Source: an uncultured Flavobacteriaceae bacterium
Lineage (GTDB): Bacteria > Bacteroidota > Bacteroidia > Flavobacteriales > Flavobacteriaceae
NCBI GenBank assembly: GCA_947500385.1
Contig: CANMSA010000001.1
Span: 496,001-560,000, forward strand
DNA length: 64,000 nt
Direction: 5' to 3'
The position numbers and the translations under genes were made by a program. Under the pieces are notes generated by a model. It did not search any database, was not told where the DNA came from, and saw only the letters and a list, made by a program, of their open reading frames with translations. This document shows positions 4,266 through 17,820 of this stretch, one piece after another. How positions within the stretch are numbered: position 1 is the first letter of the stretch; the number at the start of each line of letters is the position of its first letter.

Positions 4266-4310
4266 CTAACATAGCGTTTCTAGAAAAATCATGCTTACGG
4301 AAATCTGTAA
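4266..4310 (-). promoter_or_regulatory. Palindromic operator with -7 box (promoter of the HTH-like membrane protein)
   Basis: The 16-bp site TTACGGAAATCTGTAA (4295-4310) is a near-palindrome of 7-bp arms. On the minus strand, 21 bp beyond it, lies TATGTTAG (4273-4266), close to the Bacteroidota -7 consensus TAnnTTTG. The same spacing recurs at four other promoters in this window, so this is read as an activator site centred near -42 of a minus-strand transcript. On the plus strand I see no matching -7 box at that distance. Confidence 0.6.
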
Positions 4311-4473
4311 ACGGTGGGGTTTGGCCCATTGGAAAGTAGCCTAACGCCACCGTCTACCGATTTCACTTTCCACAAAAACAAGGAGTACTCCACCCCTTAC
4401 GGGGGACTGGCAAAAGCAGCTCTGGGAAGGTCCCGGACGGCCACCCCTATGACAAATTTTAAAGCAAAGTTTT

Positions 4474-4629
4474 ATGAAAAAAGTAGTAATAGCCGCATTG
4501 GCAATAGTTTTTAATATGTTTTTATTTTCTTGTACCGACGATTCCATCGCCGAAACCGACATCCTTTATGAAACCCAGGCGACCGAGGGAGACGATGGAG
4601 AAGTAGAACAAGATCCTGACGGTCAATAG
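4474..4629 (+). CDS. small lipoprotein, 51 residues
   Basis: This short gene encodes a product starting MKKVVIAALAIV and ending GEVEQDPDGQ. A hydrophobic signal segment ends in a lipobox (FLFSC, Cys at residue 20), followed by an acidic, probably disordered tail (DDSIAETD...). It should be a lipid-anchored surface or periplasmic peptide. The ATG is preceded by an A-rich stretch (AAAGCAAAG), usual in Bacteroidota, which lack strong Shine-Dalgarno sites. It lies 50 bp upstream of a sensor kinase on the same strand and could be part of its sensing unit. No family recognised. Confidence 0.6.
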   Translation: MKKVVIAALAIVFNMFLFSCTDDSIAETDILYETQATEGDDGEVEQDPDGQ

Positions 4630-4679
4630 AATGCAAGTTAGTTCTTACATTTGATCGGCCTTTTTACTAATTTTGAGGG

Positions 4680-6530
4680 ATGAAGCATTACGTTGCCTTG
4701 TCCCTCTTTTTTGTATTTACTTTTGTTTGGAAAGGCTGTAACTCAAACACAACGGTCAAAAGCGATTCATATCCGATTTCGGATTCCACATCTTTGAAGG
4801 CTCTTGCAGATACTATTGGCACATTCGGAAGGCAGAAAAAATACGATAGTGCCATATACTATTCAAGAAAGCTATTGCGCCTATCCACAGCCCTTAATGA
4901 TAGCTCCTATATGGCCAATGCCAATCGCAGATTGGGGTTTTATAAGAAAAAGAAAAATCAGCTCGATTCAGCATTTTTTTTCTTCAATAAAGCCCTTAGC
5001 ATCCGTAAAAATCTCAAGGATAGCCTTACCGCCGGGGAACGGCTGTTAGACATGGCCAACATTCAGAAAAGCCTAGGGGCATTCAATAATAGTAACACTA
5101 CCGCAATTGACGGTTTACAATACCTGAAAAACGAAACACAAACAGTAGCGATTTCCGGCTTGCACCATGTGCTCTCAGTCTCCTACAAAGAACTGGGAAA
5201 CTACAAGGAGGCATTAAAATGGAACGATAGCGCAATCTATACCGTTCTACAAGACGAAGAACGGGCAAGAGATATCTTGATATTCCAAAATACCAGGGCC
5301 AATATCCTAGCAGGGCAACAGCATTATTCCCAAAGCATTTCCTTATTACAACAATTGTTGAAAGACACCTCGGCCGTCAAAAGTAAAACCGAATATGCAA
5401 GGGTTTTGTGCAACCTGGGGGTGGTAAAATGGCAAGAAAACCCAAATAATAGTGAAAGTGAAGCCCTACTGTTAAGGGCGTCAAAGGAAAGGGAAGCATT
5501 GAAAACCGTATCGGGACTTATTTCCAGCCACATCCACTTGGCCGAATATTATGCGAACAATAAACCCGAATTGGCGCTTGAACACGCCATTACTGCTGCA
5601 ACGTATGGGGAACAATTGAACAATCCTGTTGCAGTACACGAAGCATTGGGGCTTCAGATTTCGCTTAAGAATACCTTGAAACGCAATGCAACCGAGGAAG
5701 CGATAAAGTATAAAGAAATTAGTGAGCATCTTGAGCGCACCAAACAAAAAATCAGCAGCATATATGTGACCACCAAGTACGAAAATGATCAACTTACTGC
5801 GAAAAACGTGTCCTTGAAGGAAGTTGCGCGTCAAAAACAGCAACAGAATAGAATGTACCTCTTCGGCTTGATTCTTGTGTTGATGGCAAGCACATTTTTA
5901 TGGTACTATTTTAAACAACGCAACAAACGCCTCCAACAGGCAAACAAAACAGCCCGACTGGAAGCGTCCCATGAAACGGAGGCGGCATTGTCCCGACGCT
6001 TGCACGACGGGATCGGGGCCACACTGAATTACGGTATGACGTTGCTACAAAACAATGCCGATAAATTAGAGATACTGGATACCCTGGACAGTGCCTACCA
6101 TCAAAGCCGCGATCTATCGAGAGAAATCAACGAGGTGGATACAGGCCTCCACTACCCTGAAGAACTATTAGCAATGCTCGGATCTAGAAAGGCACCAGAA
6201 ACAAAATTGTTAGTGGCAGGCCTAAAGGAAATCAATTGGGAACCGCTAGATTCCCTGATCAAAACCACGCTCTACAAAGTACTACAGGAACTCATGATCA
6301 ATATGGGAAAACACAGCCAAGCAGAGCAAGTATCGGTCATATTTAAAAAAACGGCGACCACCCTTGAAATACATTATGCCGATAATGGCATCGGGGCGTC
6401 AAAAAGCAGTCTCAACATTAAAAATGGCCTGCAGAATACAGAAAAGCGTATTCAAGCCATTGGCGGAACCATTACTTTTGATTCTGAAACGGGAAAGGGC
6501 TTCCATGCCGAAATCAAAATCCCCAAGTAA
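4680..6530 (+). CDS. TPR-containing sensor histidine kinase, divergent catalytic region
   Basis: A 616-residue protein with the same layout as the kinase at 740-2686. It has an N-terminal signal/lipoprotein-like segment (VWKGCNSN), TPR-type helices (~40-340), a coiled coil, a membrane helix (~393-412, MYLFGLILVLMASTFLWYYF), a phosphoacceptor motif SRRLHDGIGA (His near 442), and a HATPase domain. The N-box reads QELMINMGKHSQ instead of the more usual LVNNAIKHS, but the Asn and Lys-His are kept. The G-box YADNGIG and a short GLQNTEKRI are present, so it is probably active. The response regulator begins 11 bp after its stop, forming a second two-component pair. Confidence 0.87.
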   Translation: MKHYVALSLFFVFTFVWKGCNSNTTVKSDSYPISDSTSLKALADTIGTFGRQKKYDSAIYYSRKLLRLSTALNDSSYMANANRRLGFYKKKKNQLDSAFFFFNKALSIRKNLKDSLTAGERLLDMANIQKSLGAFNNSNTTAIDGLQYLKNETQTVAISGLHHVLSVSYKELGNYKEALKWNDSAIYTVLQDEERARDILIFQNTRANILAGQQHYSQSISLLQQLLKDTSAVKSKTEYARVLCNLGVVKWQENPNNSESEALLLRASKEREALKTVSGLISSHIHLAEYYANNKPELALEHAITAATYGEQLNNPVAVHEALGLQISLKNTLKRNATEEAIKYKEISEHLERTKQKISSIYVTTKYENDQLTAKNVSLKEVARQKQQQNRMYLFGLILVLMASTFLWYYFKQRNKRLQQANKTARLEASHETEAALSRRLHDGIGATLNYGMTLLQNNADKLEILDTLDSAYHQSRDLSREINEVDTGLHYPEELLAMLGSRKAPETKLLVAGLKEINWEPLDSLIKTTLYKVLQELMINMGKHSQAEQVSVIFKKTATTLEIHYADNGIGASKSSLNIKNGLQNTEKRIQAIGGTITFDSETGKGFHAEIKIPK

Positions 6531-6541
6531 CAAACAGCACC

Positions 6542-7207
6542 ATGTTCAAAAAAGTACTATTAGCAGAAGATTTCCAAGGCGAAAACCGTGGTATCGTGAC
6601 AACATTGCATGAGAAATTAGGCATTGATCAACTACAAGGCGAGATGTATTGCGATAAAGCATTGAACCGTTTAAAAGTTGCCCATGGTCATGCTCAGCCT
6701 TTTGAACTTCTTATAACGGACTTATCTTTTAAGAAAGATCATGTAGTTCAAAAAGTAGCCTCCGGAATTTCACTCATGAAAGCTGCTAGGGAAATACAGC
6801 CCAAAATAAACATCATAGTAAACTCCATGGAAGACAATCCTATGAAAATAAATGCCCTTTTTAAGGAACACAACATCAACGGTTATGTATGCAAGGGGCC
6901 AAATGGGTTGCAAGAATTGGTCACAGCCATACGGGAAGTATACCAAAACAGAACCTACGTTTCACCCAATGTGAATCTGCAAGTACAAAACAACGTTTTT
7001 GAGCTGGAAGCATTTGACCTCGACATTCTAAAGGATTTGGCCAACGGACTCACCAAAAAGGAAATTGCCTTAAAGCTAAGAGACCAACACATCTCTCCCA
7101 ATAGTGAAAGTACCATTGACAAACGGGTAAGCCGTCTTTTCGATGAATTTGGCGCCAAAAACACCAACCATTTGATCGCCAAACTGGTGAAATTGGGTAA
7201 AATCTGA
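6542..7207 (+). CDS. response regulator with divergent LuxR-like output domain
   Basis: A 221-residue response regulator paired with the preceding kinase. The receiver domain has the acidic pair (LLAEDF), an Asp near residue 59 (LLITDLSF), the Ser of IVNSMED, and the Lys in GYVCKG. The C-terminal ~65 residues resemble a LuxR-type helix-turn-helix (LANGLTKKEIALKL) with a longer loop (RDQHISPNSEST) before the recognition helix, unlike the standard form in the regulator at 2683-3315. A terminator hairpin follows at 7240-7274, which contains one copy of the TTACGGA-type palindrome. A role for this regulator at that site is only inferred from proximity. Confidence 0.88.
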   Translation: MFKKVLLAEDFQGENRGIVTTLHEKLGIDQLQGEMYCDKALNRLKVAHGHAQPFELLITDLSFKKDHVVQKVASGISLMKAAREIQPKINIIVNSMEDNPMKINALFKEHNINGYVCKGPNGLQELVTAIREVYQNRTYVSPNVNLQVQNNVFELEAFDLDILKDLANGLTKKEIALKLRDQHISPNSESTIDKRVSRLFDEFGAKNTNHLIAKLVKLGKI

Positions 7208-7239
7208 CCTATATAATTCCTCTTTATCAAACAAATTTC

Positions 7240-7274
7240 AATCCCTTATAGATATCTGTAAGGGATTCTTTTTT
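7240..7274 (+). terminator. Intrinsic terminator overlapping an operator palindrome
   Basis: The arms AATCCCTTA (7240-7248) and TAAGGGATT (7259-7267) form a perfect 9-bp stem followed by a T-rich run (TTCTTTTTT). It lies 33 bp after the response-regulator stop and should end that transcript. The hairpin loop region contains GATATC and is part of the palindrome TTATAGATATCTGTAA (7246-7261). Confidence 0.7.
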
Positions 7275-7290
7275 GATGGGTGTAGGTTTG
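7246..7290 (+). promoter_or_regulatory. Palindromic operator with -7 box TAGGTTTG (DUF1508 operon promoter)
   Basis: The palindrome TTATAGATATCTGTAA (7246-7261) is followed after exactly 21 bp by TAGGTTTG (7283-7290), a full match to the Bacteroidota -7 consensus TAnnTTTG. The predicted transcript start is near 7296, 26 bp before the GTG of the DUF1508 gene. The block GTAGGTTTGGG is shared with the promoter at 9433-9477. Confidence 0.72.
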
Positions 7291-7321
7291 GGGTAATATA
7301 AATCACTTAAATAAGCACAAT

Positions 7322-7474
7322 GTGGACAAATGGGAATTTTATCAAGATTCAAAAAAAGAATGGCGTTGGAGACGAACCGCATCAAATGGTAGAATAGTAG
7401 GTGCGTCGACTCAAGGATATGTCAACAAATCGGATTGTATTGAGAATGCCAAACGACACGGGTACAAAGACTAA
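7322..7474 (+). CDS. DUF1508 (YegP-like) small protein, 50 residues
   Basis: Translation from a GTG at 7322 gives VDKWEFYQDSKKEWRWRRTA followed by SNGRIVGASTQGYVNKSDC and ends AKRHGYKD. This is one complete DUF1508 unit: the pattern F-x-x-Y/W-x-D-x-x-x-x-(Y/F)RWR-x-x-A-x-NG, then G-x-GY, then a short helix with Cys/Lys. The family's biochemical role is unknown. No ATG is available in frame, as the frame opens only at 7286. The next gene starts 3 bp after the stop, so it leads a three-gene operon driven by the palindrome-linked promoter just upstream. Confidence 0.75.
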   Translation: MDKWEFYQDSKKEWRWRRTASNGRIVGASTQGYVNKSDCIENAKRHGYKD

Positions 7475-7477
7475 ACC

Positions 7478-7711
7478 ATGAACTATAAAGTAATACCATT
7501 TCTTCCTTCAATTAATCAGAAAAAGGAAAATTCTGAGCACGTGGCAGAACAATTGGAAGGAATTATCAGGAGAGGCAATGAAGCTGATTGGGAATTTGTT
7601 AGTCTTGAAGAAGTTTCAACCTACATTCTGCCTAGTGCAGGTTGTTTTGGACTAGGCGCAACTCCTGGTTACACCGCTTCTAGGCAAATGGTAGTATTCA
7701 AGAAAAAATAG
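7478..7711 (+). CDS. small DUF4177-like protein
   Basis: A 77-residue soluble protein, MNYKVIPFLPSINQKK... . A helix AEQLEGIIRRGNEADWEFVS then a strand-rich C-terminus ending ASRQMVVFKKK recalls the DUF4177 fold (short strand, helix with a Leu-x-x-x-Gly-x-x-GWE/DWE turn, strand). The middle has an unusual Gly-rich segment (SAGCFGLGATPGYT). No function is known. It sits between the DUF1508 gene (3-bp gap) and the YidD-like gene, whose ATG follows its TAG directly, so the three are translated from one message. Confidence 0.6.
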   Translation: MNYKVIPFLPSINQKKENSEHVAEQLEGIIRRGNEADWEFVSLEEVSTYILPSAGCFGLGATPGYTASRQMVVFKKK

Positions 7712-8032
7712 ATGCCCTTTTTCATTGTAGCTAGTATTAAACTGTACTGGATATGTATTCCAAAACCTCAAAGGAGAAGATGCATTTTCAAGGAATCTTG
7801 TTCCAAACATGTTTATAGGAAAACCCTAGAAAAAGGCTTTCATGGAGGTTTGAATGCCCTATTGTTTAGATACAGGAATTGTAGATCAGGGTTTGAAATT
7901 TTTGAAAACCCAGTTGATGGTAAAATTCAAATGATTCTTCCCAATCAACAAATCATAAATGACACGGAAATAGCGGAAAGAATACTTAAAAAACAAGTCG
8001 AACCTCAGAGAAAGTCATTACATAGCCCCTAG
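7712..8032 (+). CDS. YidD-like protein (membrane protein insertion efficiency factor family)
   Basis: The 106-residue product begins with a hydrophobic/amphipathic helix (IKLYWICIPK). It continues with RRRCIFKESCSKHVYRKTLE, the family pattern C-x-F/Y-x-x-(T/S)CS-x-(Y/H)-x-x-x-(A/T)-(I/L)-x-x-x-G, and then the GLNALLFRYRNCRSGF segment corresponding to the RI-x-x-C(H/R) end of YidD. YidD proteins assist membrane insertion near YidC and are normally ~70-80 residues; this one carries a ~35-residue C-terminal extension. Such an extended, operon-isolated copy is not the housekeeping gene next to rnpA. ATG follows immediately after the previous stop (TAGATG). Confidence 0.65.
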   Translation: MPFFIVASIKLYWICIPKPQRRRCIFKESCSKHVYRKTLEKGFHGGLNALLFRYRNCRSGFEIFENPVDGKIQMILPNQQIINDTEIAERILKKQVEPQRKSLHSP

Positions 8033-8087
8033 GTAAAAATTTTGAAAATAATATAAAAAAGATAGACAAGAAATACACGTAACTCCA

Positions 8088-9143
8088 ATGACGCAACTCC
8101 AAACCCAACTAAAAGCGCTTGCCGAAAAAATAGGCAAGCTCAAAGACCAGATCACCACCGAAGAATCTACCAAACATGCCTTTGTACTTCCCTTTATCAA
8201 TGCATTGGGGTATGATACTTTTAATCCCATAGAGGTGGTACCCGAATTCACGGCAGACATCGGCCTAAAAAAGGGTGAAAAAGTAGACTATGCCATTTTT
8301 CAAGACGGCCAGCCCATCATCATCATGGAATGTAAAAACTGGAAAGAAGGCTTGGATGCGCACAACTCTCAATTGGTTCGCTATTTCCATGCTTCCAAAA
8401 CGCGCTTTGCCCTATTGACCAATGGCATTGAATATCGGTTTTATACCGACTTGGAGGCAGCTAACAAAATGGACGAAAAACCTTTTTTGGAATTTGATAT
8501 TACCAAACTAAAGGATAACACCCTTCATGAGCTTACCAAGTTCCACAAATCCAATTTTGATTTGCAAAAAATAGTGGACAATGCCAGCTCCTTAAAATAT
8601 ACCAAAGAGCTTAAAAAGTTGATTCTTGCAGAACTTCAAGACCCCTCATTACCTTTTGTAAAACTCTTTGCAGCGAAGGTGCATACAGGCCGGCTTACTG
8701 AAAAAGTGATTGGGGAATTCACCGATTTGGTAGGCAGGGCCTTTACCCAGACCATCAGCGAAAAAGTGAATGACCGTTTAAATAGCGCACTCAACAAAGA
8801 AGCAGCACAACAACAAGAAGAAGTGCCAGAACCGAAGGAAACCAGTAAGATTATTACCACTGAAGAAGAGTTGGAAGGGTTTCGAATCGTAGTGGCGATC
8901 CTAAGGAGAAAACTACCGGTCGCACGCATTGCGCATCGTGATACCCAGTCCTATTTTGGGATTTTATTAGACGACAACAATCGAAAGCCGCTTTGCAGAT
9001 TGCATCTAAATGGCAGTAAAAAATACTTGGGCGTGTTTGAAAAGGATAAAAGTGAAACCAAACACTCCATTGAATCGATCGATACGATCTACGAATTCGA
9101 AGAAGCCTTACTACAAACGGTGGAGGATTATGAAAAGGATTAA
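8088..9143 (+). CDS. HsdR N-terminal-type PD-(D/E)xK nuclease-fold protein
   Basis: A 351-residue protein with an N-terminal coiled coil (~1-25). A type I restriction HsdR_N-like domain (~25-180) follows, with the nuclease motif spread over GEKVDYAIF and IIIMECKNW (Asp and Glu-x-Lys), then the typical LVRYFHASKTRFALLTNG segment. The C-terminal ~85 residues (from EELEGFRIVVAILRRKLP) form a second conserved alpha/beta module. No helicase motor and no HsdM/HsdS neighbours are present, so it is not a classical type I system. Standalone proteins of this kind are common in bacteria and their target is not established. Its place between the palindrome-linked operon and CRISPR suggests, but does not prove, a defence role. 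Confidence 0.72.
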   Translation: MTQLQTQLKALAEKIGKLKDQITTEESTKHAFVLPFINALGYDTFNPIEVVPEFTADIGLKKGEKVDYAIFQDGQPIIIMECKNWKEGLDAHNSQLVRYFHASKTRFALLTNGIEYRFYTDLEAANKMDEKPFLEFDITKLKDNTLHELTKFHKSNFDLQKIVDNASSLKYTKELKKLILAELQDPSLPFVKLFAAKVHTGRLTEKVIGEFTDLVGRAFTQTISEKVNDRLNSALNKEAAQQQEEVPEPKETSKIITTEEELEGFRIVVAILRRKLPVARIAHRDTQSYFGILLDDNNRKPLCRLHLNGSKKYLGVFEKDKSETKHSIESIDTIYEFEEALLQTVEDYEKD

Positions 9144-9155
9144 AACCAACTATCC

Positions 9156-9374
9156 ATGAAAACACTTTCGATATTTTTTTTTAGTACGCTTCTATTCCTT
9201 CAGCCACTATCCAATGTTGAAACCAAGGTCTATATCTGCAAAGGGAAAGGAAGCAAAAAATACCACTATAAGAAGTCATGTCGCGGCCTTTCCCGCTGTT
9301 CGACCAAGATATATGAAGTTGCAAAGACAAAGGCCAAAGAAATGGGAAGGACCCTTTGCGGCTGGGAAGATTAA
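9156..9374 (+). CDS. small secreted Cys/His protein of a Bacteroidota family
   Basis: A 72-residue product with a signal peptide (MKTLSIFFFSTLLFLQPLSN). The short mature part KVYICKGKGSKKYHYKKSC is followed by GLSRCSTKIYEVAKTKAKEM and ends GRTLCGWED. The C-x(n)-YH-x(3-4)-C-x-GL-x-x-C pattern resembles the metal-binding N-terminal module of Ada-type proteins and is seen in many small Bacteroidota proteins. Zinc binding is inferred. It starts 12 bp after the nuclease-like gene and is followed by a terminator at 9402-9429, so it closes that transcript. Confidence 0.68.
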   Translation: MKTLSIFFFSTLLFLQPLSNVETKVYICKGKGSKKYHYKKSCRGLSRCSTKIYEVAKTKAKEMGRTLCGWED

Positions 9375-9401
9375 CCATTACCTACACTATAAACACAGGA
9401 G

Positions 9402-9429
9402 AAGAACGGTTGTTAGGCCGTTCTTTTTT
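9402..9429 (+). terminator. Intrinsic terminator
   Basis: AAGAACGG (9402-9409) pairs with CCGTTCTT (9418-9425) and is followed by a T run to 9429. It ends the transcript of the small secreted protein, only 4 bp before the operator palindrome of the next gene. Confidence 0.8.
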
Positions 9430-9432
9430 GCT

Positions 9433-9477
9433 TTACGGATATCTGTAAGGAATTGTCTTTGAATGGGGGTAGGTTTG
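9433..9477 (+). promoter_or_regulatory. Palindromic operator with -7 box TAGGTTTG
   Basis: TTACGGATATCTGTAA (9433-9448) is followed after exactly 21 bp by TAGGTTTG (9470-9477). The predicted transcript start (~9483) lies 23 bp before the ATG at 9506. The palindrome centre would be near -42, the classic position for an activator contacting RNA polymerase. Spacing and the GTAGGTTTGGG block match the promoter at 7246-7290. Confidence 0.75.
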
Positions 9478-9505
9478 GGATATTAACCATTAAAACCATT
9501 TAAAC

Positions 9506-10033
9506 ATGAAAAAACTATTGGTCCTATTATGTATTTCACATGCATTGTGTTGGGGGCAGCATGATTCCCTAACCGTAAGTAATGCAGAATTATTCTCTTC
9601 CAAATCAGGTACGCTTTTCGAGAAAGAATTTGTTGATTTGGGAAAAGTAAAAAAGGTAGAATTCGAAATATTAAAAGTTACCGATATGATTTCGGGAGCT
9701 TCAATAAAGTCGTTAAGAATAAGACAAAATGTTAAAAACGGTTATTCTTCAGGCACGAAAATTATAACACTAGACTCGGATGAAATCGACGGTTTGCTCA
9801 AATCCATTAGAGTAATCAAAAGTGAGGTCTTGGGAAATAGTCCTACCAATTACACAGAAATCGCTTTTTATAGCCGAAGCGGTTTTGAAATGGGTTGTTT
9901 TTGGGGCAGTAAGGACCAATGGGTATTATACTTAAGACTTGAAAAAAAGGATAGAACTTCTACTATCTTTCTTAAAAAAGAAGAATTTGACGAGTTTAAT
10001 AGGTTATTGGAAAATGCCCAAGCAACACTATGA
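9506..10033 (+). CDS. secreted hypothetical protein
   Basis: A 175-residue protein with a signal peptide (MKKLLVLLCISHALCWGQ). The mature domain is rich in beta strands (EILKVTDMISGASIKSLRIR, TEIAFYSRSGFEMGCFWG) and ends with a charged helix (KEEFDEFNRLLENA). I do not recognise the family; small beta-rich secreted proteins of this look are common in Flavobacteriaceae. It has its own palindrome-linked promoter. No terminator is visible in the 97 bp between it and cas1, so cas1-cas2 may be read from the same promoter. Confidence 0.6.
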   Translation: MKKLLVLLCISHALCWGQHDSLTVSNAELFSSKSGTLFEKEFVDLGKVKKVEFEILKVTDMISGASIKSLRIRQNVKNGYSSGTKIITLDSDEIDGLLKSIRVIKSEVLGNSPTNYTEIAFYSRSGFEMGCFWGSKDQWVLYLRLEKKDRTSTIFLKKEEFDEFNRLLENAQATL

Positions 10034-10130
10034 AAGCTATAATTAACGGCCATGATGAGTGCTGATTCGGTTGGGTAAATTAGAAATGGATTCCGGCATC
10101 AGCAAAAAACATGACTAAATCGTTTCACAG

Positions 10131-11015
10131 ATGATAAAACGATCGATTCTAATAGAACAAAATGCTAAAGTAACCTGTAAATATCGTCAACTTTGCATAG
10201 CGACTCCTGAAAGGGAGGCTACTATACCTATTGAAGATATCGGTTTTTTGGTCATAGAACATCAAGAAACCTATATTAGTATTCCCGCACTGAACCAGCT
10301 CATTGCCAACAATAGCGCGGTTATTATCTGCGATACCCACCACCTACCACATGGTATGTTCCTTAACTTGAACGCCCATCATATTCAACAACAACTATTC
10401 AAGGCACAGATCAATGCCAGCAGTCCGTTGAAGAAGCAATTATGGCAGCAGACCGTAAAACAAAAAATACACAACCAGGGCCTATTGTTGAAACGAGTTA
10501 CTGAAAGAGACAACAAGTTCAATTTTTTGGTGTCCAAGGTATTAAGTGGGGACACCTCCAATATGGAAGGGGTAGCAGCCAATTTCTATTGGGGTTCTTT
10601 TTTTGAAATCGACTTTAAGAGAGAACGCTTTGGGAACTATCCCAATAACTTTTTAAACTATGGGTATGCCATTCTAAGGGCCGCTACGGCCAGAGCCCTT
10701 TCGGGCAGCGGCTTGTTGAATACACTGGGCATACACCACAAAAATAAGTACAATGCCTTTGCATTGGCCGATGATATTATGGAACCGTACAGGCCTCTCG
10801 TGGACGAATGTGTACATGGGCTGATGCAAAAATTCGACGAAAAAGAACTGATTACCCCTATAAAATTGGAACTTGTAAACCTATTAACCAGAACCGTGTA
10901 TTTCGAAAACGAAAAAAGTCCCCTAATGGTGGCTTTACAAAAAACCGCCAGTTCTCTTCAACAGTGTTTTACAGGGCAGCGAAAAAAAATAAATTATGCC
11001 AAGCTATGGAGTTAA
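10131..11015 (+). CDS. cas1: CRISPR-associated endonuclease Cas1 (type II)
   Basis: The 294-residue Cas1 integrase of type II systems captures spacers together with Cas2. The N-terminal beta domain (~1-75) precedes the helical catalytic domain. The metal-binding residues are visible as Glu near 145 (SNMEGVAANF), His near 201 (TLGIHHKN) and Asp near 214 (FALADDIMEPYRPLVD). Length and motifs match complete family members. Its last 10 bp overlap the start of cas2. Unlike the usual cas9-cas1-cas2 order, cas9 lies beyond the array on the other strand. No csn2 or cas4 is present, consistent with subtype II-C. Confidence 0.97.
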   Translation: MIKRSILIEQNAKVTCKYRQLCIATPEREATIPIEDIGFLVIEHQETYISIPALNQLIANNSAVIICDTHHLPHGMFLNLNAHHIQQQLFKAQINASSPLKKQLWQQTVKQKIHNQGLLLKRVTERDNKFNFLVSKVLSGDTSNMEGVAANFYWGSFFEIDFKRERFGNYPNNFLNYGYAILRAATARALSGSGLLNTLGIHHKNKYNAFALADDIMEPYRPLVDECVHGLMQKFDEKELITPIKLELVNLLTRTVYFENEKSPLMVALQKTASSLQQCFTGQRKKINYAKLWS

Positions 11016-11335
11016 ACGGATATCGCATTATGTGGTTATTTGTTTTTTTTGACTTGCCAACCGAAACGAAAAAGGACCGTCGCAATGCGGCCGGATTTCG
11101 CAAGAATTTATTGAAAGACGGTTTTGATATGATGCAATACTCCGTATATACCCGACATTGCGCAAGCAGTGAAAGTGCCGATGCGCATGAAAGGCGCATT
11201 CTTTTGTTACTTCCTCCTTTTGGCAAAGTAAGTGTTTTGCGTATCACCGATAAGCAGTTTGGAAATATCTTAAATTTTTGGGGGCGCGAAGAAGCCCCCA
11301 AAGCACCCCCGCCCATGCAATTGGAACTGTTTTAA
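11006..11335 (+). CDS. cas2: CRISPR-associated endoribonuclease-like Cas2
   Basis: A 109-residue Cas2 starting MELNGYRIMWLFVFFDLPTE. The ferredoxin-like fold signature (hydrophobic strand then FDLPT with the conserved Asp) is followed by YSVYTRHC and a strand LLLLPPFGKVSVLRITDKQF. The ATG at 11006 lies 10 bp before the cas1 stop, giving translational coupling. A longer in-frame extension upstream exists but runs antisense to nothing and only re-reads cas1 DNA, so it is rejected. A strong terminator follows at 11340-11388, directly before the CRISPR array. Confidence 0.95.
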   Translation: MELNGYRIMWLFVFFDLPTETKKDRRNAAGFRKNLLKDGFDMMQYSVYTRHCASSESADAHERRILLLLPPFGKVSVLRITDKQFGNILNFWGREEAPKAPPPMQLELF

Positions 11336-11339
11336 AACC

Positions 11340-11388
11340 AAAAATGCCCCAAACAAGCCTTATCACTGCTTATAAGGGGCATTTTTTT
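11340..11388 (+). terminator. Terminator of the cas1-cas2 transcript
   Basis: AAAAATGCCCC pairs with GGGGCATTTTTTT across a loop that itself contains CCTTAT/ATAAGG. It lies 5 bp after the cas2 stop and separates cas2 from the array, which is read in the opposite direction. Confidence 0.8.
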
Positions 11389-11439
11389 AAACGATATTCA
11401 CGCTTAAACACCTAACTATTAGAAGGTAAGAGACCAACT

Positions 11440-13255
11440 AATATCGTGTCTTCCAATCTTTAATCAAACCACAACCCGATTGGGTTTACTATACAGGGAC
11501 ACGGAATATCGTGTCTTCCAATCTTTAATCAAACCACAACACGTATCAACTTCCGCAACATCTTTAAGGAAATATCGTGTCTTCCAATCTTTAATCAAAC
11601 CACAACTCACCGTGCTTGCTGTCCGTTACGATTCCTAATATCGTGTCTTCCAATCTTTAATCAAACCACAACTTGCTCGTTAAATAAATGTTAGTGCCGA
11701 AAAATATCGTGTCTTCCAATCTTTAATCAAACCACAACGATGCTTCGGCAATTATTGATTCTTGAAAGAATATCGTGTCTTCCAATCTTTAATCAAACCA
11801 CAACTTTCGAATGATTTATCTATTTCTTCTTCGGAATATCGTGTCTTCCAATCTTTAATCAAACCACAACTACTGGGGCAAGTGTAAAATACAATTCAGG
11901 AATATCGTGTCTTCCAATCTTTAATCAAACCACAACGATCGGCCTATTCATTTGTTTGGTATTAAAAATATCGTGTCTTCCAATCTTTAATCAAACCACA
12001 ACAAAGTGCTTAAAATCATCATCGATCAAATCAATATCGTGTCTTCCAATCTTTAATCAAACCACAACGACGAAAAGGCGTCCAATGTTTGCCCCAACAA
12101 TATCGTGTCTTCCAATCTTTAATCAAACCACAACTGATGTAGCAACCGTCTTGGTCTGTTTTAAAATATCGTGTCTTCCAATCTTTAATCAAACCACAAC
12201 CGTGGTGCTTACCCCTTATCTTTTCTATTTAATATCGTGTCTTCCAATCTTTAATCAAACCACAACCGGACACGCTTCGGTGTTCACGTAATATGAAATA
12301 TCGTGTCTTCCAATCTTTAATCAAACCACAACAGGGCCTGTCCGGTGCCGTTCAGGTCATACAATATCGTGTCTTCCAATCTTTAATCAAACCACAACCG
12401 CAACTCAGAAATTCCTTGCTGGGTATTAAATATCGTGTCTTCCAATCTTTAATCAAACCACAACTGTAAACGACAGAACCGCAGCGGATTCCCTAATATC
12501 GTGTCTTCCAATCTTTAATCAAACCACAACTTCGTACAACTTGAATTGTTCGGCTTGCTCAATATCGTGTCTTCCAATCTTTAATCAAACCACAACAAGC
12601 TGATACGGGCAGAACCCTTTTTAGGAAATATCGTGTCTTCCAATCTTTAATCAAACCACAACTCAGTTGTATTGTTCAAATTTTAGGAATGGAATATCGT
12701 GTCTTCCAATCTTTAATCAAACCACAACACCACGACAAGCACATAATGACAATTCAAAAATATCGTGTCTTCCAATCTTTAATCAAACCACAACGGTATG
12801 ACGCTACAGGTGTTCATGCTGTTAAATATCGTGTCTTCCAATCTTTAATCAAACCACAACTGAAATGTTATTGCCCAATGTGCCGCAAAGAATATCGTGT
12901 CTTCCAATCTTTAATCAAACCACAACGGGTTGGTTCTCACCTATCCGTATATTTACAATATCGTGTCTTCCAATCTTTAATCAAACCACAACAAAGCCTG
13001 CCCGGTGCCGTTCAGGTCATACAATATCGTGTCTTCCAATCTTTAATCAAACCACAACGGAAACCTTTTTTTCGCTAAGACCTCTGTTAATATCGTGTCT
13101 TCCAATCTTTAATCAAACCACAACTGTTGGTTGGAGGTTCATTTGTCTTTACCAATATCGTGTCTTCCAATCTTTAATCAAACCACAACGCATTTAGGTT
13201 TTAAGTCGATATAGTCTTGAATATCGTGTCTTCCAATCTTTAATCAAACCACAAC
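11440..13255 (-). CRISPR. CRISPR array, 28 repeats of 36 bp and 27 spacers
   Basis: 28 copies of a 36-bp repeat start at 11440, 11505, 11571, 11637 and so on, to 13154 and 13220. Every copy I read is identical. On the plus strand it begins AATATCGTGTCTTCC and ends AATCAAACCACAAC. Spacers are 29-30 bp. Base-pairing with the anti-repeat at 16826-16852 requires crRNA to be read from the minus strand, starting GTTGTGG, so the leader should lie at the 13256 end. Spacers 14 (12333-12362) and 24 (12993-13022) differ at only 3 of 30 positions. Identical repeats at both ends and a full array suggest a functional, recently active locus. No spacer matches other DNA in this window by eye. Confidence 0.98.
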
Positions 13256-13336
13256 GGTGAGAGCGCCCAACAAGAACAGGTTGGAATAGTTGTAATCCTT
13301 ATTTTACCGTATTTCAAAGATCATATCTGCTATAAA
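13256..13336 (-). promoter_or_regulatory. Putative CRISPR leader
   Basis: This 81-bp A/T-rich interval lies between the cas9 stop and the first-transcribed repeat. It is the only place for a leader if crRNA is read from the minus strand. A TTTG is visible on that strand (ATCTTTGAAATACGG) but I see no convincing TAnnTTTG box, and no copy of the TTACGGA palindrome. Transcription could also continue from cas9. Confidence 0.4.
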
Positions 13337-16300
13337 CTACAGCTTTACTATTTTGCCGGAAACTGAAATTTTTAATTTCATAGGGCTAAAAGTACTCCAA
13401 CCTGTTTTTCCTTCTCCAAAACTCTGAATTCTAATGTAAAATGGTTGAAAATTATTTTTAATCGTAGCCTCTGAAGTTAATCTAAACTCGTAAAATTTAG
13501 CTGATAACTTTTGCACCCGGTACAAATGCGCTTGTAACAATTCATAATCCGGGGTTTCCCAATCAAGTTCGTCCTCCCTTAAACCCAGTAAAAACATATC
13601 ATTGATATGCAATGTCGTTACCATTTCCTTCCCATCCGGAGGCAATTGGTATATGGGATAGCCTTTACGTTTTCGTTCCACCACCGTCCAAAACGTGACC
13701 ACCTCTTCCTGTAATCGCCCCTGTTCGTCCTTATAGATCAATACATGGTGATTGTTCCGTGGGTTCACCCATTGGTTTATCCCATCCTTAAGTTGTTCTG
13801 CATTACCCAAATGCTCCCGCATGCGCACTTTCTTTACAGGTACCGGGTCCCCATTGCGGTTTGGTAAGAAAACTTGTGGTTGTTTTGCCCCATGTTCATC
13901 AACTATAAAAAAAGTGTTCGCCGGCACTTTATCTTTTTCAAAACCTCCCAATGCTTGAACGCGTTTTAGAATTTGCTTTTTTATTGCCTCATCAACCACC
14001 TTTTGCAGCTGTTTGGCCGTAGAAATACTATCAATGGGCTTACGTATATGAAAGCCAGGTTCATCATTGGGTGCTTTGCGTTTGCCGTATACGGTGTCCT
14101 TGTGTAATTGCCCCCTAGCAGCTACCCCTTTGTTTTGATAGCTATTCCCATGTTTCTCCGTTTTGTGCGTACGAACGGTAAGGTCGCGAACAGTTTTTTT
14201 ATGGGACACCAATATCTTTTCAACCGCCTTTTCGGCATCGTATCGGAAAGTTTCCCAAGGCATGGGAAAATCCTTTTGATCGGGGTTCTGTTTGTAACGG
14301 TTCCATCGGGATAATTCTTGTAAATAACTCGTTTTACTACAGGCCATTACCAAGGCATCAATCGCATGGTGTCGATGGTCGGCTCTGCTTTTGGAATTTT
14401 GCTCGTTCAATATGGAATTCAAGCCCCATTTATGCCTCAATTGGGCCGTCATTTGCCCAGGGGAAACCGACACTTTCGTACAAATTGCAGCAAGGTAATC
14501 TTTCGCTGCCCTGCTGATGTATCGGGTATCGTTCAACTGTCTCGCTGTAAAATCGTCATCGAAATGCTGCTGCACAAAGCGCTTGAACTTGTAGTAGGCC
14601 TTGGGATATTCCTTGGTATCCGAGAACAGTTTTATGGCACGTTCCTTGATAGCCGACCAATTCTTTTCATCTCCCCCATAAAATTCAAATGGGGTTTTGT
14701 TCCCCTTTTTTCGATTTTCATCGGCCCAACAAAGTGTTTTGTTGGCAAAACTGTCGTTCAAGGAACGGCTCCACGGATGTATGTGTTCTATTTGTACCTG
14801 GCCCGTAAATAGGTCCGCAATAGCTATGGATTTCCCGGTATATGGACAGGTCTTTTTACATTCTTCCCATAATTTAAATTTCAAAATAGTGTTATGCGAA
14901 AGATTCGTATATTTCAACACTTCCGCTTTAACTCGGTCATTTTCCCTTTCCCGCCTTTTTTTGTCACGGCGAACGTTGTTCCGCTGTGTTTTGGAAGCTT
15001 TTAAATCTCTTGCTATTTCAACTTTTATCTCGTCTATGGCACCATGCGTATCGATCAGTTCGTTCACTAGTTTGCGCAATTCGAACAAAGCCGTAATAAC
15101 TATTGGGTTTCGTATCGCTTGTATTTCCTTGTCCGCCTCCTTCCCCAATGGCAATCTGGGTAGCAACTGTTTTCCGTCGATACTGGAGGAATGATGATAC
15201 AATTTATGCAATCGCTTTTCTGCAATACCAAAATCTTTACGGAGTATCTCTTTAATAGTCCCTATAAAACCACCGGTCGTTTTTGAACGGACAATAGCTT
15301 CCACATTATCGATCAGGTCCAATTGCCTTTGGTCATTTTCTGGGGTATCGTTTTGCCACTTTTCCCCAAAAGCATTTTTAATGCCGCCCATGACCGCTGC
15401 AGCATCATAGGTATATCCCATTTTTAGAAACGGTAAAATATTGGTTATGGCTTTTCTACTTACACTGGCATAGCCTTCCTTTAAATTGAATTTTGAAATG
15501 GCGACGGCTTTTTCTTCAGTAAACCCCCATTGCTTTTGGGCATATGCCTTTAGATTGGATTTACTATCAAAAAAATAGAGCACATGCCAAATATCCTCTT
15601 GCTGTTTCGGTGTAAGTTCAAACCATTTAGCCCCAAAGAACTTTTTATTGGATAAATGGGCTATGGTATGGCTACCCACAATTTTGTCATCGTCTTTGTA
15701 GTTGAACTTAAACTCGGCACTCCCTTTTTGCAATACCTTTCGTATTCGTTTGAATGTGGGTTTTTCCGCACTGTATAAAAAACCTACTATTTTTTCCCTT
15801 TCTTCTTGGGTAATTTTTTCCCCATTACATTCTATCGTGTTCACCCATTGCCAAATTCTAAATTCTTCAAATGCGATCACGCTTACGGGGCACTTAGCCT
15901 TTTTGGATTCAAATGTACAATTGCCCACCAAATGCTTTTGTGATCGTAAAGGGCGCTGATGAAACAAAACACCGTCTTCTTTATATCCATCCTGCTTTCT
16001 TCCTCCGAATAAAGTCTTTAATCCCTCATCTAATATAGGGTGGTATTGCGCCTGCCTATTCCATATAAGCTCAAACTCATCAATATACATTTTACGGGTA
16101 GTATAGCGGTTTCGAATGCGTTCCAAACCACCTTTAAAAGGTTCGTTGTCCTTTGGGGATATTTGATGCAAATACGCTCCTAGTGTTTGATCTTCAATTT
16201 TTCCTAAAGTTTCAGCGATACCTATTTTTCCTTCCTTGGCGTTTCCTTTAAAAATTGCCCCATCGTCTGTTCCTCCTTTTCTACTATTACTCAAAAAACC

Positions 16301-16717
16301 CCTACGTTGCACTAAATGATATAAAATTCTACCTAACTCGTGAAGTGCAAGCTTCTCCGTCAAGGCTTTTTTTCTAAGATCGTAAGGGTTCAGGGCAAAC
16401 CAGTTAGCAAGTTTACTCTCAGGGAATTTTTTGGTATTCCTCCATTCTTTAAAATCTTGCTCGTTCAAAGGGCACATATTGTGTTCAGAAAGGCATTGTA
16501 GCAATATCTTTTTACGCAGACGTCTTCTAAAAAATTGTCTGCGAATTCCTCTAGCACCGGTTCTACCGGCATTTTTGGACAGCTCCTTTTCCCCATCTCC
16601 TAAATTCTCCACCCCCATGGGGAAAATTCTACTTCCCATGCCTATTATTTCAGTATTATTAATTAACGCCCAACCGATGCTGTTGGCACCTAAATCCAAT
16701 CCTAATATTTGACCCAT
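13337..16717 (-). CDS. cas9: CRISPR-associated endonuclease Cas9, compact type II-C
   Basis: A 1,126-residue RNA-guided DNA endonuclease. RuvC-I is seen at the N-terminus (LGLDLGANSIGWAL, catalytic Asp8), followed by an Arg-rich bridge helix (RRQFFRRRLRKKI, ~60-75). RuvC-II is near 562 (DEIKVEIARDLK, catalytic Glu). The HNH domain is near 620-680 (CPYTGKSIA, QIEHIHPWSRSLNDSFANKT, NRKKGNK). RuvC-III is near 783 (HHAIDALVMACS). All nuclease residues are present, so it should cut both strands. The size is at the short end and fits II-C; Flavobacteriaceae often carry ~1,400-residue forms. It is transcribed toward the array and convergent with cas1-cas2. The tracrRNA is divergent from it across a shared operator. 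Confidence 0.97.
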   Translation of the reverse strand: MGQILGLDLGANSIGWALINNTEIIGMGSRIFPMGVENLGDGEKELSKNAGRTGARGIRRQFFRRRLRKKILLQCLSEHNMCPLNEQDFKEWRNTKKFPESKLANWFALNPYDLRKKALTEKLALHELGRILYHLVQRRGFLSNSRKGGTDDGAIFKGNAKEGKIGIAETLGKIEDQTLGAYLHQISPKDNEPFKGGLERIRNRYTTRKMYIDEFELIWNRQAQYHPILDEGLKTLFGGRKQDGYKEDGVLFHQRPLRSQKHLVGNCTFESKKAKCPVSVIAFEEFRIWQWVNTIECNGEKITQEEREKIVGFLYSAEKPTFKRIRKVLQKGSAEFKFNYKDDDKIVGSHTIAHLSNKKFFGAKWFELTPKQQEDIWHVLYFFDSKSNLKAYAQKQWGFTEEKAVAISKFNLKEGYASVSRKAITNILPFLKMGYTYDAAAVMGGIKNAFGEKWQNDTPENDQRQLDLIDNVEAIVRSKTTGGFIGTIKEILRKDFGIAEKRLHKLYHHSSSIDGKQLLPRLPLGKEADKEIQAIRNPIVITALFELRKLVNELIDTHGAIDEIKVEIARDLKASKTQRNNVRRDKKRRERENDRVKAEVLKYTNLSHNTILKFKLWEECKKTCPYTGKSIAIADLFTGQVQIEHIHPWSRSLNDSFANKTLCWADENRKKGNKTPFEFYGGDEKNWSAIKERAIKLFSDTKEYPKAYYKFKRFVQQHFDDDFTARQLNDTRYISRAAKDYLAAICTKVSVSPGQMTAQLRHKWGLNSILNEQNSKSRADHRHHAIDALVMACSKTSYLQELSRWNRYKQNPDQKDFPMPWETFRYDAEKAVEKILVSHKKTVRDLTVRTHKTEKHGNSYQNKGVAARGQLHKDTVYGKRKAPNDEPGFHIRKPIDSISTAKQLQKVVDEAIKKQILKRVQALGGFEKDKVPANTFFIVDEHGAKQPQVFLPNRNGDPVPVKKVRMREHLGNAEQLKDGINQWVNPRNNHHVLIYKDEQGRLQEEVVTFWTVVERKRKGYPIYQLPPDGKEMVTTLHINDMFLLGLREDELDWETPDYELLQAHLYRVQKLSAKFYEFRLTSEATIKNNFQPFYIRIQSFGEGKTGWSTFSPMKLKISVSGKIVKL

Positions 16718-16740
16718 ATTGCTAAAAAGTATTGTAGGTT

Positions 16741-16785
16741 TAAACTTAATTAAAAATAAGAATACATACTAATAGATATCCGTAA
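16741..16785 (-). promoter_or_regulatory. cas9 promoter: operator plus -7 box TAAGTTTA
   Basis: On the minus strand the site TTACGGATATCTATTA (16785-16770) is followed after exactly 21 bp by TAAGTTTA (16748-16741), close to TAnnTTTG. The predicted transcript start (~16735) lies 18 bp before the cas9 ATG at 16717. The arm nearer tracrRNA (TTACGGA in this orientation) is the better-conserved half. Confidence 0.68.
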
Positions 16786-16814
16786 TGGTATTTGTAGACT
16801 TTTATTTATCTTAG
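16770..16814 (+). promoter_or_regulatory. tracrRNA promoter: same operator plus -7 box TATCTTAG
   Basis: Read on the plus strand, the same 16-bp operator (TAATAGATATCCGTAA) is followed after exactly 21 bp by TATCTTAG (16807-16814). The predicted start near 16820 falls directly before the anti-repeat, as expected for a tracrRNA. The -7 box resembles that at 4273-4266 (TATGTTAG). Confidence 0.68.
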
Positions 16815-16819
16815 CTTCA

Positions 16820-16909
16820 GATAAAGACTTCCAATCTTTAATCTTATCACAATAAGGCTATATGCCGTAGGTAAAAAACCTTTGGTCCCGCTTCGGTGGG
16901 ACTTTTTTT
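16820..16909 (+). ncRNA. tracrRNA
   Basis: The anti-repeat is at 16826-16852. CTTCCAATCTTTAATC (16 nt) is identical to the plus strand of the CRISPR repeat and so pairs with the minus-strand crRNA repeat. A 4-nt mismatch (TTAT against AAAC) forms the bulge, and CACAAT forms a 6-bp lower stem with GTTGTG of the repeat. This upper stem, bulge and lower stem are the normal crRNA:tracrRNA duplex for RNase III processing. Downstream are a nexus-like GGC-TATAT-GCC hairpin, an AGGT/ACCT hairpin, and a terminator hairpin GTCCC/GGGAC (16885-16902) with a T run to 16909. Predicted length is about 90 nt. The gene is divergent from cas9. Confidence 0.9.
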
Positions 16910-16941
16910 ATGATAAGTGGTAACGGCCTGGCAAATGAAGG

Positions 16942-17754
16942 TTACCTTAAAGAAAACCGCAAAACCACCGGTAAGTGATCCGATAGCTTTCGTGCGTTTT
17001 CCAGCTCATCGCAGACCCGTACAAAATCTAGAACGCCCCCTTTTACCTTTCCAATTTCTTTGGAGCAAAACACATTGTCTATGGGGTAGTTCAAATAATC
17101 TTGCCGGCTACAGCTTCTTTTTAAGGTTGTTTTTTGATTTTGAATCGCTGGAGTGAACCCGGCCGCTTTCAACCTATCGAACACCGGTTTTTTTTCATCC
17201 ACATTAAAATCACCGGTCAATATCAAAGGAACCTGTAGTGAATCGCATATATAGGTGGTAAGAGCCTTGATCTCAGCCTCCGGATTCTTGTTATGCGGCC
17301 GCGAATGGAAATTAATGATGGACAGCTTTTTCCCCTTTACATAGAACTCCATCAAATACGGTTCCCGATCGATCTCGGTATCCAAGGCCTCAATAAGTCC
17401 TCCCCTATTCTTTATTTTGATATGCTTGGTCTTCCAAACAAAGGCATAGCGTTCTGTCACATACTTGCTGCTATGAGTGGGATCGCTAATGACATAATCC
17501 CACTTGCTCCCCTTTCGATTCAGGATATCCGACAGCTTCGCTACCGCCTGAGCCCCACCAAACCCGGCGACCACTTCTTGAATGGCCACAATGTCCGAAT
17601 CCCTTAAAATGTCGGCCATCCGATTTAGTTCCTCCGCATTCTTTGTCTTTCCAAAGTCACGAATATTCCAAGAGACCAAGGTGATTTCATCTGTTTGGGA
17701 AAAAATAATCAAGTGAAGAAACAGGGTGCCTAAAAAAAAGAGTTTTTTAATCAT
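16942..17754 (-). CDS. secreted endonuclease/exonuclease/phosphatase (DNase I-fold) protein
   Basis: The 270-residue protein has a signal peptide (MIKKLFFLGTLFLHLIIFSQ) followed by one complete EEP domain. Motifs in order are LVSWNIRDFG, IVAIQEV (metal-binding Glu), ERYAFVWK, IINFHSRPH (catalytic His), LILTGDFNVD (Asp-x-Asn), PIDNVF, and LSDHLPVVL (catalytic Asp-His). All active-site residues are present, so it should be an active Mg-dependent phosphodiesterase, most likely a nuclease, acting in the periplasm or outside the cell. Its promoter carries the best copy of the palindrome shared with cas9 and tracrRNA. The gene converges on the tracrRNA terminator with a 32-bp gap. Confidence 0.85.
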   Translation of the reverse strand: MIKKLFFLGTLFLHLIIFSQTDEITLVSWNIRDFGKTKNAEELNRMADILRDSDIVAIQEVVAGFGGAQAVAKLSDILNRKGSKWDYVISDPTHSSKYVTERYAFVWKTKHIKIKNRGGLIEALDTEIDREPYLMEFYVKGKKLSIINFHSRPHNKNPEAEIKALTTYICDSLQVPLILTGDFNVDEKKPVFDRLKAAGFTPAIQNQKTTLKRSCSRQDYLNYPIDNVFCSKEIGKVKGGVLDFVRVCDELENARKLSDHLPVVLRFSLR

Positions 17755-17776
17755 TTTGGTTGGTCAATGGTCCACT

Positions 17777-17820
17777 CAAAAATACCCCAAACCACACAAA
17801 TTTTTTACGGAAATCCGTAA
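17777..17820 (-). promoter_or_regulatory. Palindromic operator with -7 box TATTTTTG (secreted nuclease promoter)
   Basis: TTACGGAAATCCGTAA (17805-17820) is a perfect palindrome of 7-bp arms around AA. On the minus strand TATTTTTG (17784-17777), a full TAnnTTTG match, starts 20 bp beyond it. The predicted start (~17771) is 17 bp before the ATG at 17754. This is the best single copy of the motif in the window. Confidence 0.72.

Follow-up and report, generated by a model that had tools for sequence, protein, structure and literature searches.

The window analyzed here is a 64,000-nt stretch of an uncultured Flavobacteriaceae bacterium (contig CANMSA010000001.1, positions 496,001-560,000). Its study stretch of ∼13.5 kb (4266-17820) encodes a type II-C CRISPR-Cas system and a two-component system, and contains repeated copies of a palindrome of the type TTACGG-N4-CCGTAA, the candidate operator of a regulon that spans both. 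Five copies stand 20 to 21 bp before six TAnnTTTG-like −7 boxes. All five palindromes and all six boxes named in an earlier reading of this DNA (the original prediction) are present where it placed them, at 21 bp (20 bp for the site at 17805); a sixth site, within the kinase gene, had escaped it. In what follows, L numbers denote fetched loci and G numbers genomes, and genes of relatives described as look-alikes were recognized by eye unless a method is named.

The sensor histidine kinase gene (4680..6530, plus strand; Pfam TPR_12 and HATPase_c) is followed by a gene for a NarL/RcsB-type response regulator (6542..7207, plus strand), the proposed binder of all sites. The sixth site (ATACAGAAAAGCGTAT, 6436..6451, plus strand), proposed to be autoregulatory, lies within the 3′-terminal part of the kinase gene, upstream of the regulator gene; its box (TACTTTTG, 6473-6480, plus strand) follows at 21 bp, and the regulator gene starts 61 bp later. 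Site 4 (TAATAGATATCCGTAA, 16770..16785, 9/12 bases) is the putative shared operator of two divergent promoters, with boxes 21 bp away on either side: TAAGTTTA (16741..16748, minus strand) for cas9 (13337..16717, minus strand; TIGR01865 at 5.4e-187, with 33 relatives) and TATCTTAG (16807..16814, plus strand) for the trans-activating CRISPR RNA (tracrRNA; 16819..16913, plus strand), which is recognized by an anti-repeat and a terminator-like hairpin and whose start is predicted from the box. Site 3 (putative operator TTACGGATATCTGTAA, 9433..9448, plus strand; box TAGGTTTG at 21 bp, 9470..9477, plus strand) precedes a gene for a secreted-looking protein of no assigned family (9506..10033, plus strand), a look-alike of which stands behind a boxed site in L126. 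Next come a type II cas1 (10131..11015, plus strand; TIGR03639 at 9e-89), perhaps transcribed by read-through from site 3, and cas2 (11006..11335, plus strand; TIGR01573 at 5.1e-16). The cas9, cas1 and cas2 genes were identified by profiles and the array and anti-repeat by eye; the II-C label is given on these three genes, the tracrRNA and the array.

Three further sites complete the set. Site 2 (TTATAGATATCTGTAA, 7246..7261, plus strand; box TAGGTTTG at 21 bp, 7283..7290, plus strand) lies just 3′ of the regulator gene and precedes three small plus-strand genes, its predicted targets: a DUF1508 protein (7322..7474; Pfam PF07411 at 8.4e-7), a small protein that resembles DUF4177-like genes of relatives but itself has no Pfam or NCBIfam match (7478..7711), and a YidD-like protein whose Pfam match falls below cut-off (7712..8032). 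An HSDR_N/PD-(D/E)XK-like protein (8088..9143, plus strand; Pfam 1.3e-16) is a possible member of the same operon. DUF4177-like genes of relatives also stand behind sites (by eye), and PF13783 was found in 2 of the 108 first genes of the target census described below. Site 1 (TTACGGAAATCTGTAA, or TTACAGATTTCCGTAA read on the minus strand; 4295..4310, minus strand) is at 21 bp from a TATGTTAG box (4266..4273, minus strand) and is the putative operator for a gene encoding a predicted helix-turn-helix (HTH) protein with a membrane segment (3345..4097, minus strand; no Pfam or NCBIfam match). Look-alike HTH genes in L120 and L121 are preceded by a 10/12 site whose box is likewise TATGTTAG, and L268 has another look-alike behind a boxed site. 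Site 5, an exact copy of the predicted operator (TTACGGAAATCCGTAA, or TTACGGATTTCCGTAA read on the minus strand; 17805..17820, minus strand), stands 20 bp from its box (TATTTTTG, 17777..17784, minus strand), ahead of a gene for a secreted-looking protein of the endonuclease/exonuclease/phosphatase family (16942..17754, minus strand; Pfam PF03372 at 3.6e-9); look-alikes of this nuclease occur behind boxed sites in L025 and L027 (by eye) and L285 (blastp cluster).

Site 2 also forms the core of a terminator-like hairpin at 7240-7274 (AATCCCTTA...TAAGGGATT, then CTTTTTT) directly 3′ of the regulator gene; L025 shows something similar near 12382. The predicted operator may thus double as the terminator of the regulator gene. 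A terminator as the sole meaning of site 2 was rejected, as it leaves the 21-bp spacing and the sites elsewhere unexplained; both functions may hold. The 21-bp spacers at 7262-7282 and 9449-9469 resemble one another and those of promoters in L025 and L126 (approximately GGnATTnTnTTTnATGGG), a likeness that extends beyond site and box.

Promoter geometry of the palindrome

Sequence similarity by itself is weak evidence for the motif. The window holds seven matches with up to three mismatches where 2.8 are expected, and 5 of 100 shuffles reach seven; in 10 genomes of the genus, exact matches are near background. Only five places in the 6.03-Mb own genome come within one mismatch of the originally predicted motif, and three of them do fall within the 13.5-kb study stretch. 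An exact site elsewhere in that genome, L010, lacks a box and was taken to be a chance match. Bare counts show little or no excess, and the motif must therefore be judged together with its spacing.

Spacing was measured over distances of 0 to 60 bp in the 394 flanks of 197 distinct exact sites from relatives; site-rich genomes were fetched preferentially, which makes the fetched sites a non-random sample, while loci L127 to L156, with one site per genome, were not hand-picked. A perfect TAnnTTTG starts at 21 bp in 72 of the 394 flanks, at 22 bp in 6, at 20 bp in 1 and at any other distance in no more than 1. When one mismatch is allowed and the TA kept (at least 5/6), the box is at 21 bp in 125 flanks, at 22 bp in 17 and at 20 bp in 9. 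The arrangement of site plus spacing is far beyond chance in the relatives, and comparison shows the predicted operator to stand 21 bp from the putative sigma-A −7 box. The original prediction had named a random scatter of the motif, with no spacing to −7 boxes, as what would refute it; such scatter describes the bare counts and not the spacing.

The operator is written TTACGG-N-WW-N-CCGTAA: across the 125 aligned promoters its central pair is A or T throughout, and where a −33 element would lie the sequence is RG instead of TTG. The accessible text of a study of Flavobacterium psychrophilum places the sigma-A box at −12 to −5 (PMC9723704). With the box so placed, the 21-bp distance puts the centre of the palindrome at −41.5 relative to the predicted transcription starts. 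A centre at −41.5 is the position of a class II activator. The same sites could be repressor operators, through which the regulator would keep defence genes off until a signal arrives. BrxR/CapW, CapR and RptR, described in the accessible text of PMC12255303 as transcriptional repressors of a single defence system or island, share the control of defence genes with the system proposed here and provide a precedent for repression, but the proposal here is a two-component activator of scattered systems, and the strict 21-bp spacing, the −41.5 centre and the lack of a TTG-like −33 element make up an activator-dependent geometry. We consider repression very unlikely.

Association with the response regulator family

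Co-occurrence was examined in 299 evenly drawn genomes of the family, 130 of which carry a homologue of the 6542 regulator at E ≤ 1e-20 and 120 an exact site. Exact sites occur in 96 of the 130 genomes with the regulator versus 24 of the 169 without it (Fisher p = 1.6e-26, odds ratio 17), at 1.88 versus 0.15 sites per genome; a reversed-motif control gave 32/130 versus 34/169 (p = 0.40). In 30 site loci taken one per genome, a box lies at 20 to 22 bp in 18 of 23 regulator-bearing genomes and in none of 7 others. Homologues are present in 18 of the 34 genomes with a cas9 locus, and exact sites adjoin the gene in many of them. In G026 and G028 the regulator was found by a profile search, in G026 directly beside its sites. 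Culturable environmental strains that carry the kinase-regulator pair include Aequorivita todarodis KCTC 62141 and Cellulophaga tyrosinoxydans DSM 21164.

The original prediction had offered two candidate binders, the regulator at 6542 and another at 2683, and only the first withstood comparison. A boxed site lies within 1.5 kb of the 6542-type gene in most of 52 regulator loci (at least 11/12 bases in 33, at least 9/12 in 47). The 2683 regulator, which would act with its own kinase, is a canonical GerE-type protein encoded 1 kb from site 1; yet among 30 loci of its type (the window's own included) boxed sites reach 11/12 in just one, the window itself, and 9/12 in two. It was rejected as the binder on these counts, and we give it next to no probability. 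A looser set of 38 loci gave 2 and 7, respectively, and is a less clean comparison than the 30, since many of its loci were chosen for a seemingly boxless central match and at least two (L130 and L145) nonetheless adjoin a regulator gene, judging by their coordinates. The likely binder is the 6542 regulator with its TPR kinase.

The same regulator family extends to another bacterial family within the order (42 genomes there, 79 of 246 overall). In the 20 of these 42 regions that were fetched, 13 of them from one genus and hence non-independent, all 20 have a boxed site scoring 11/12 or better by the regulator gene, exact in 19, and 18 have a site at the usual place upstream of the gene. Three regions (L330, L332 and L348) have tandem regulator genes with a boxed 11/12 site in between. 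In this second family, what follows the regulator-linked site is most often a DUF1508-like gene, frequently in duplicate (L331, L334, L335, L340, L341 and others; by eye). Comparison thus shows the predicted operator to be linked to the 6542 regulator family in two bacterial families. A different factor might bind the palindrome, for example a CRP/FNR-family protein, with the two-component system merely one of its targets: 5-4-5 half-sites (TACGG-N4-CCGTA) and a −41.5 centre would suit such a protein, and a few genomes have boxed sites and no recognized regulator. The sequence can be read just as well as a 7-2-7 inverted repeat of NarL type, however, and the sites track the 6542 regulator at the odds ratio given above, lying by its gene in 47/52 loci and in every second-family region fetched (no search for CRP/FNR proteins was made). 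We regard this explanation as very improbable.

The window's own genome has two more members of the regulator family, L085 (C7:175919) and L088 (C1:481707), both preceded by a gene for a kinase homologue. Beside the L085 gene, a TAGGTTTG box stands at 21 bp from CTGCGGATTTCCGCAA, a variant of the palindrome, and L088 has a site of the kinase-internal type alone; possibly these are sister regulons with shifted specificity. In L380 (G258:C1:592583) the regulator gene is frame-changed, by either a sequencing error or a recent mutation; boxed sites adjoin it, in a genome with seven exact sites.

The predicted fold of the 6542 regulator (mean predicted local distance difference test score 84, predicted template modeling score 0.63) comprises a receiver domain and a four-helix C-terminus (helices 157-167, 172-181, 189-203 and 208-217). 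It matches RcsB (best PDB entry, E 4.1e-11), spr1814, LiaR and VraR, and by profile it matches other NarL-type regulators, RcsB among them. The Pfam Response_reg match (5.8e-4) is below cut-off; the receiver features (acidic pocket, phospho-acceptor Asp, Lys) are borne out by alignment, D10, D60 and K118 being invariant in 17 sequences (alignment A3). These residues, the domain plan and the inverted 7-2-7 site are what the protein shares with NarL/FixJ/RcsB-type regulators; it differs from them in that Pfam GerE was not detected, in a few extra residues ahead of the recognition helix in the alignment, and in scoring below every listed NCBIfam equivalog cut-off. A kinase homologue is encoded immediately upstream in 52/52 loci. 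Inspection of the kinase sequence by eye suggests a lipoprotein signal and a single membrane segment; its C-terminus is weakly LiaS/UhpB-like, far below cut-off.

The kinase-internal site has a counterpart of 7 to 10 of the 12 bases in 52/52 regulator loci, with a box that ends 44 to 75 bases before the regulator gene and is perfect in 44/52; the sites were located by the best match with the box held at 21 bp, and these counts lean upward. The Arg codon within the site is CGT in 47/52 loci and CGC in 5/52, and CGT makes up 14% of 985 other Arg codons of the same genes. Coding constraint alone was rejected as the cause of the site: it is partly true, but the CGT bias speaks otherwise. The copy within the kinase gene suggests autoregulation of the regulator.

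Predicted operators at cas9 and other defence genes

A named-genome scan gave 33 cas9 relatives, or 34 loci with the window. In the 115 bases before cas9, a motif of at least 9/12 occurs in 21 of the 34 loci (0.62 expected from dinucleotide shuffles) and of at least 10/12 in 11 (0.055 expected), an enrichment that is not wholly independent, since the 12-base form was fixed after viewing cas9 promoters; the 299-genome co-occurrence and second-family tests are independent of that choice. In those 21 loci the site lies between tracrRNA and cas9 and ends 49 to 55 bp before the cas9 start; in several relatives the tracrRNA-side and cas9-side boxes are both at 20 to 22 bp from it. The anti-repeat of the tracrRNA is conserved in relatives. 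The cas9 site is present in 16 of the 18 genomes with the 6542 regulator versus 5 of the 16 without (p = 0.001), so that comparison shows the predicted operator in the cas9/tracrRNA promoter of 16/18 genomes with both cas9 and the regulator. Further boxed sites lie ahead of cas1-like genes (L020, L025, L026, L027 and L045, with weaker boxes in L026 and L045), DUF1508-like genes (L017 and L025) and, in L045, look-alikes of the DUF4177-like/YidD operon and of the HSDR_N-like gene, all named by likeness to the window genes. The comparative data strongly support what had been predicted from the window, an activator regulon that includes cas9 and tracrRNA with a NarL/LuxR-type regulator nearby. The regulon appears to be wider than first predicted, reaching many anti-phage genes in other genomes.

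This wider reach was seen in a census of the first open reading frame (ORF) behind 108 boxed sites, from which cas9 loci, the window's own loci and sites whose box is not followed within 200 bp by the start of an ORF of 40 aa or more were excluded. PADLOC matched 285 models over the 108 first genes versus 7 over 108 control ORFs, counts that are inflated in that one protein can match dozens of models; the controls came from the looser set of 38 loci named above, around other motif-like matches (20 in the own genome, several apparently one gene in different genomes). Thirty of the 108 were scanned singly (E ≤ 1e-5, or 1e-10 in one batch); 18 matched and 12 did not, and as the 30 were hand-picked by size and look, 18/30 is not a rate and 18/108 is a lower bound. 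Against this imperfect control set, at least 18/108 first genes compare with at most 4/108 control ORFs at E ≤ 1e-5 (p = 0.003). The matches are SIR2 (6e-139, L105), GajA (1.8e-189), IetA (2e-133) and an MkoB-like protein (1.2e-8), both in L106, DndC (6e-135), ZorA (8.5e-45), AbiGi (3.8e-60), TerY, a GajB-like helicase, two PD-Lambda-1 proteins (to 1e-188), two type I restriction enzymes, PDC-M62A, PDC-S60 twice, PDC-M49A (6e-294) and PDC-M60A; PDC-M49A and one PDC-S60 are from G258, the genome with the frame-changed regulator gene. The 51 second genes scanned included ZorB behind ZorA (9e-56), type I methyltransferases and mads_2/3. Putative operators are thus shown by comparison to stand before many other anti-phage genes.

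Large genes behind boxed sites in L113 (2439-4499), L189, L233 and L282 had no PADLOC match at E ≤ 1e-5 and may represent defence systems not yet described. In L146 a boxed site precedes a gene for a LexA-like S24 repressor (1598-2254; Pfam LexA_DNA_bind 2.1e-7), a hint of a link to an SOS-like response.

A candidate immunity regulon

Control of cas genes by two-component systems has been described elsewhere, as has a change of cas transcripts on the loss of a two-component system. VicR and AlgB belong to other regulator families than the 6542 regulator, and PhoP is an OmpR-type regulator. In the accessible text of PMC10013973, VicR/VicK of Streptococcus mutans (types II-A and I-C) and KinB/AlgB of Pseudomonas affect cas transcription; two-component control of cas is what both pairs have in common with the system proposed here, the mechanism of VicR/VicK is called unclear, and that text mentions no operator shared with other defence systems for either pair. 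Deletion of RAYM_RS09735/09740 in Riemerella anatipestifer, a relative of flavobacteria, raised the transcripts of the CRISPR components cas9, cas1 and cas2 among 805 changed genes (PMC5399024, accessible text). That pair is discussed there in connection with PhoP/PhoR, and from this description we judged it a different system from the one at 6542. A literature search, with most subscription journals outside its coverage, found no account of this operator or regulon; five literal 16-base site strings had no match there, and the papers that did match contained the shorter sixth string alone.

We consider it highly probable that the two-component system at 4680-6530 (kinase) and 6542-7207 (regulator) activates an immunity regulon, type II-C CRISPR-Cas included, through the palindromic operator. 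Through its TPR domain the kinase would sense a signal in the envelope or periplasm; it would then phosphorylate D60 of the regulator, a dimer of which would bind at −41.5 and, as a class II activator, stand in for the absent −33 element. Here, this would activate the regulator's own gene, cas1-cas2, cas9, tracrRNA, the secreted nuclease, the HTH protein and the small proteins; elsewhere, Zorya, Gabija, Dnd, AbiGi, restriction and similar genes would respond. The outcome would be an inducible immunity regulon.

Several observations weigh against this proposal. Neither form of the motif is in excess in the own genome: allowing two mismatches, the 16-mer has 27 matches versus 25 for the reversed control, and the N4 version 226 versus 405; there is little excess in the 33 relatives' cas9 loci plus the window (55 versus 41 reversed matches of at least 10/12), and the window's own cas9 copy scores just 9/12. 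The loci overall are not phylogenetically independent. Exact sites are missing from 34 of the 130 regulator-bearing genomes, perhaps through operator drift. Boxed sites also occur in G012 and G032, neither labeled as a metagenome-assembled genome, in which the regulator search returned nothing at 1e-6 and a best hit of 4e-7, respectively, and the cas9 sites of G015, G016 and G034 lack a homologue at 1e-15, with weak ones at 1e-6 in G016 and G034. Three of the 18 defence matches (SIR2, IetA and the MkoB-like protein) come from G012 and G032, and we slightly lowered our confidence for that reason. The kinase-internal site overlaps a conserved coding motif, N-x-E-x-R-I. Finally, many targets are small, secreted-looking or of no known function, among them CsgG/FlgO-like, M48 peptidase and DUF1508 proteins, and immunity may not be the whole regulon. 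Targets of this kind, together with a kinase that combines TPR repeats with a weakly LiaS-like end, would suit a general envelope-stress or competence-like programme with the defence genes as passengers. Defence families are nevertheless commoner than among control ORFs, and unrelated systems, namely Zorya, Dnd, Gabija, AbiGi and CRISPR, each carry the putative operator; we find such a programme rather unlikely as the explanation.

Beyond the activation of an immunity regulon by the 6542 system, a broader proposal seems to us evenly balanced: that this is an inducible master switch of flavobacterial immunity, in which a periplasmic danger signal, from phage attack or the lysis of neighbours, would turn on CRISPR-Cas9, tracrRNA, the spacer-acquisition genes and whichever other defence systems are carried, and which newly acquired defence genes would join once they have a 16-bp operator at the 21-bp distance from a −7 box. 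When costly immune systems are expressed is largely an open question, and if the proposal is true, bacterial immunity across a large bacterial group would have a shared control point. A short, exact DNA signature would allow likely members of the immunity regulon to be read from sequence, with their likely regulator and sensor named. The operator would also serve as a search tool, with genes of no known function behind it as candidates for new defence systems.

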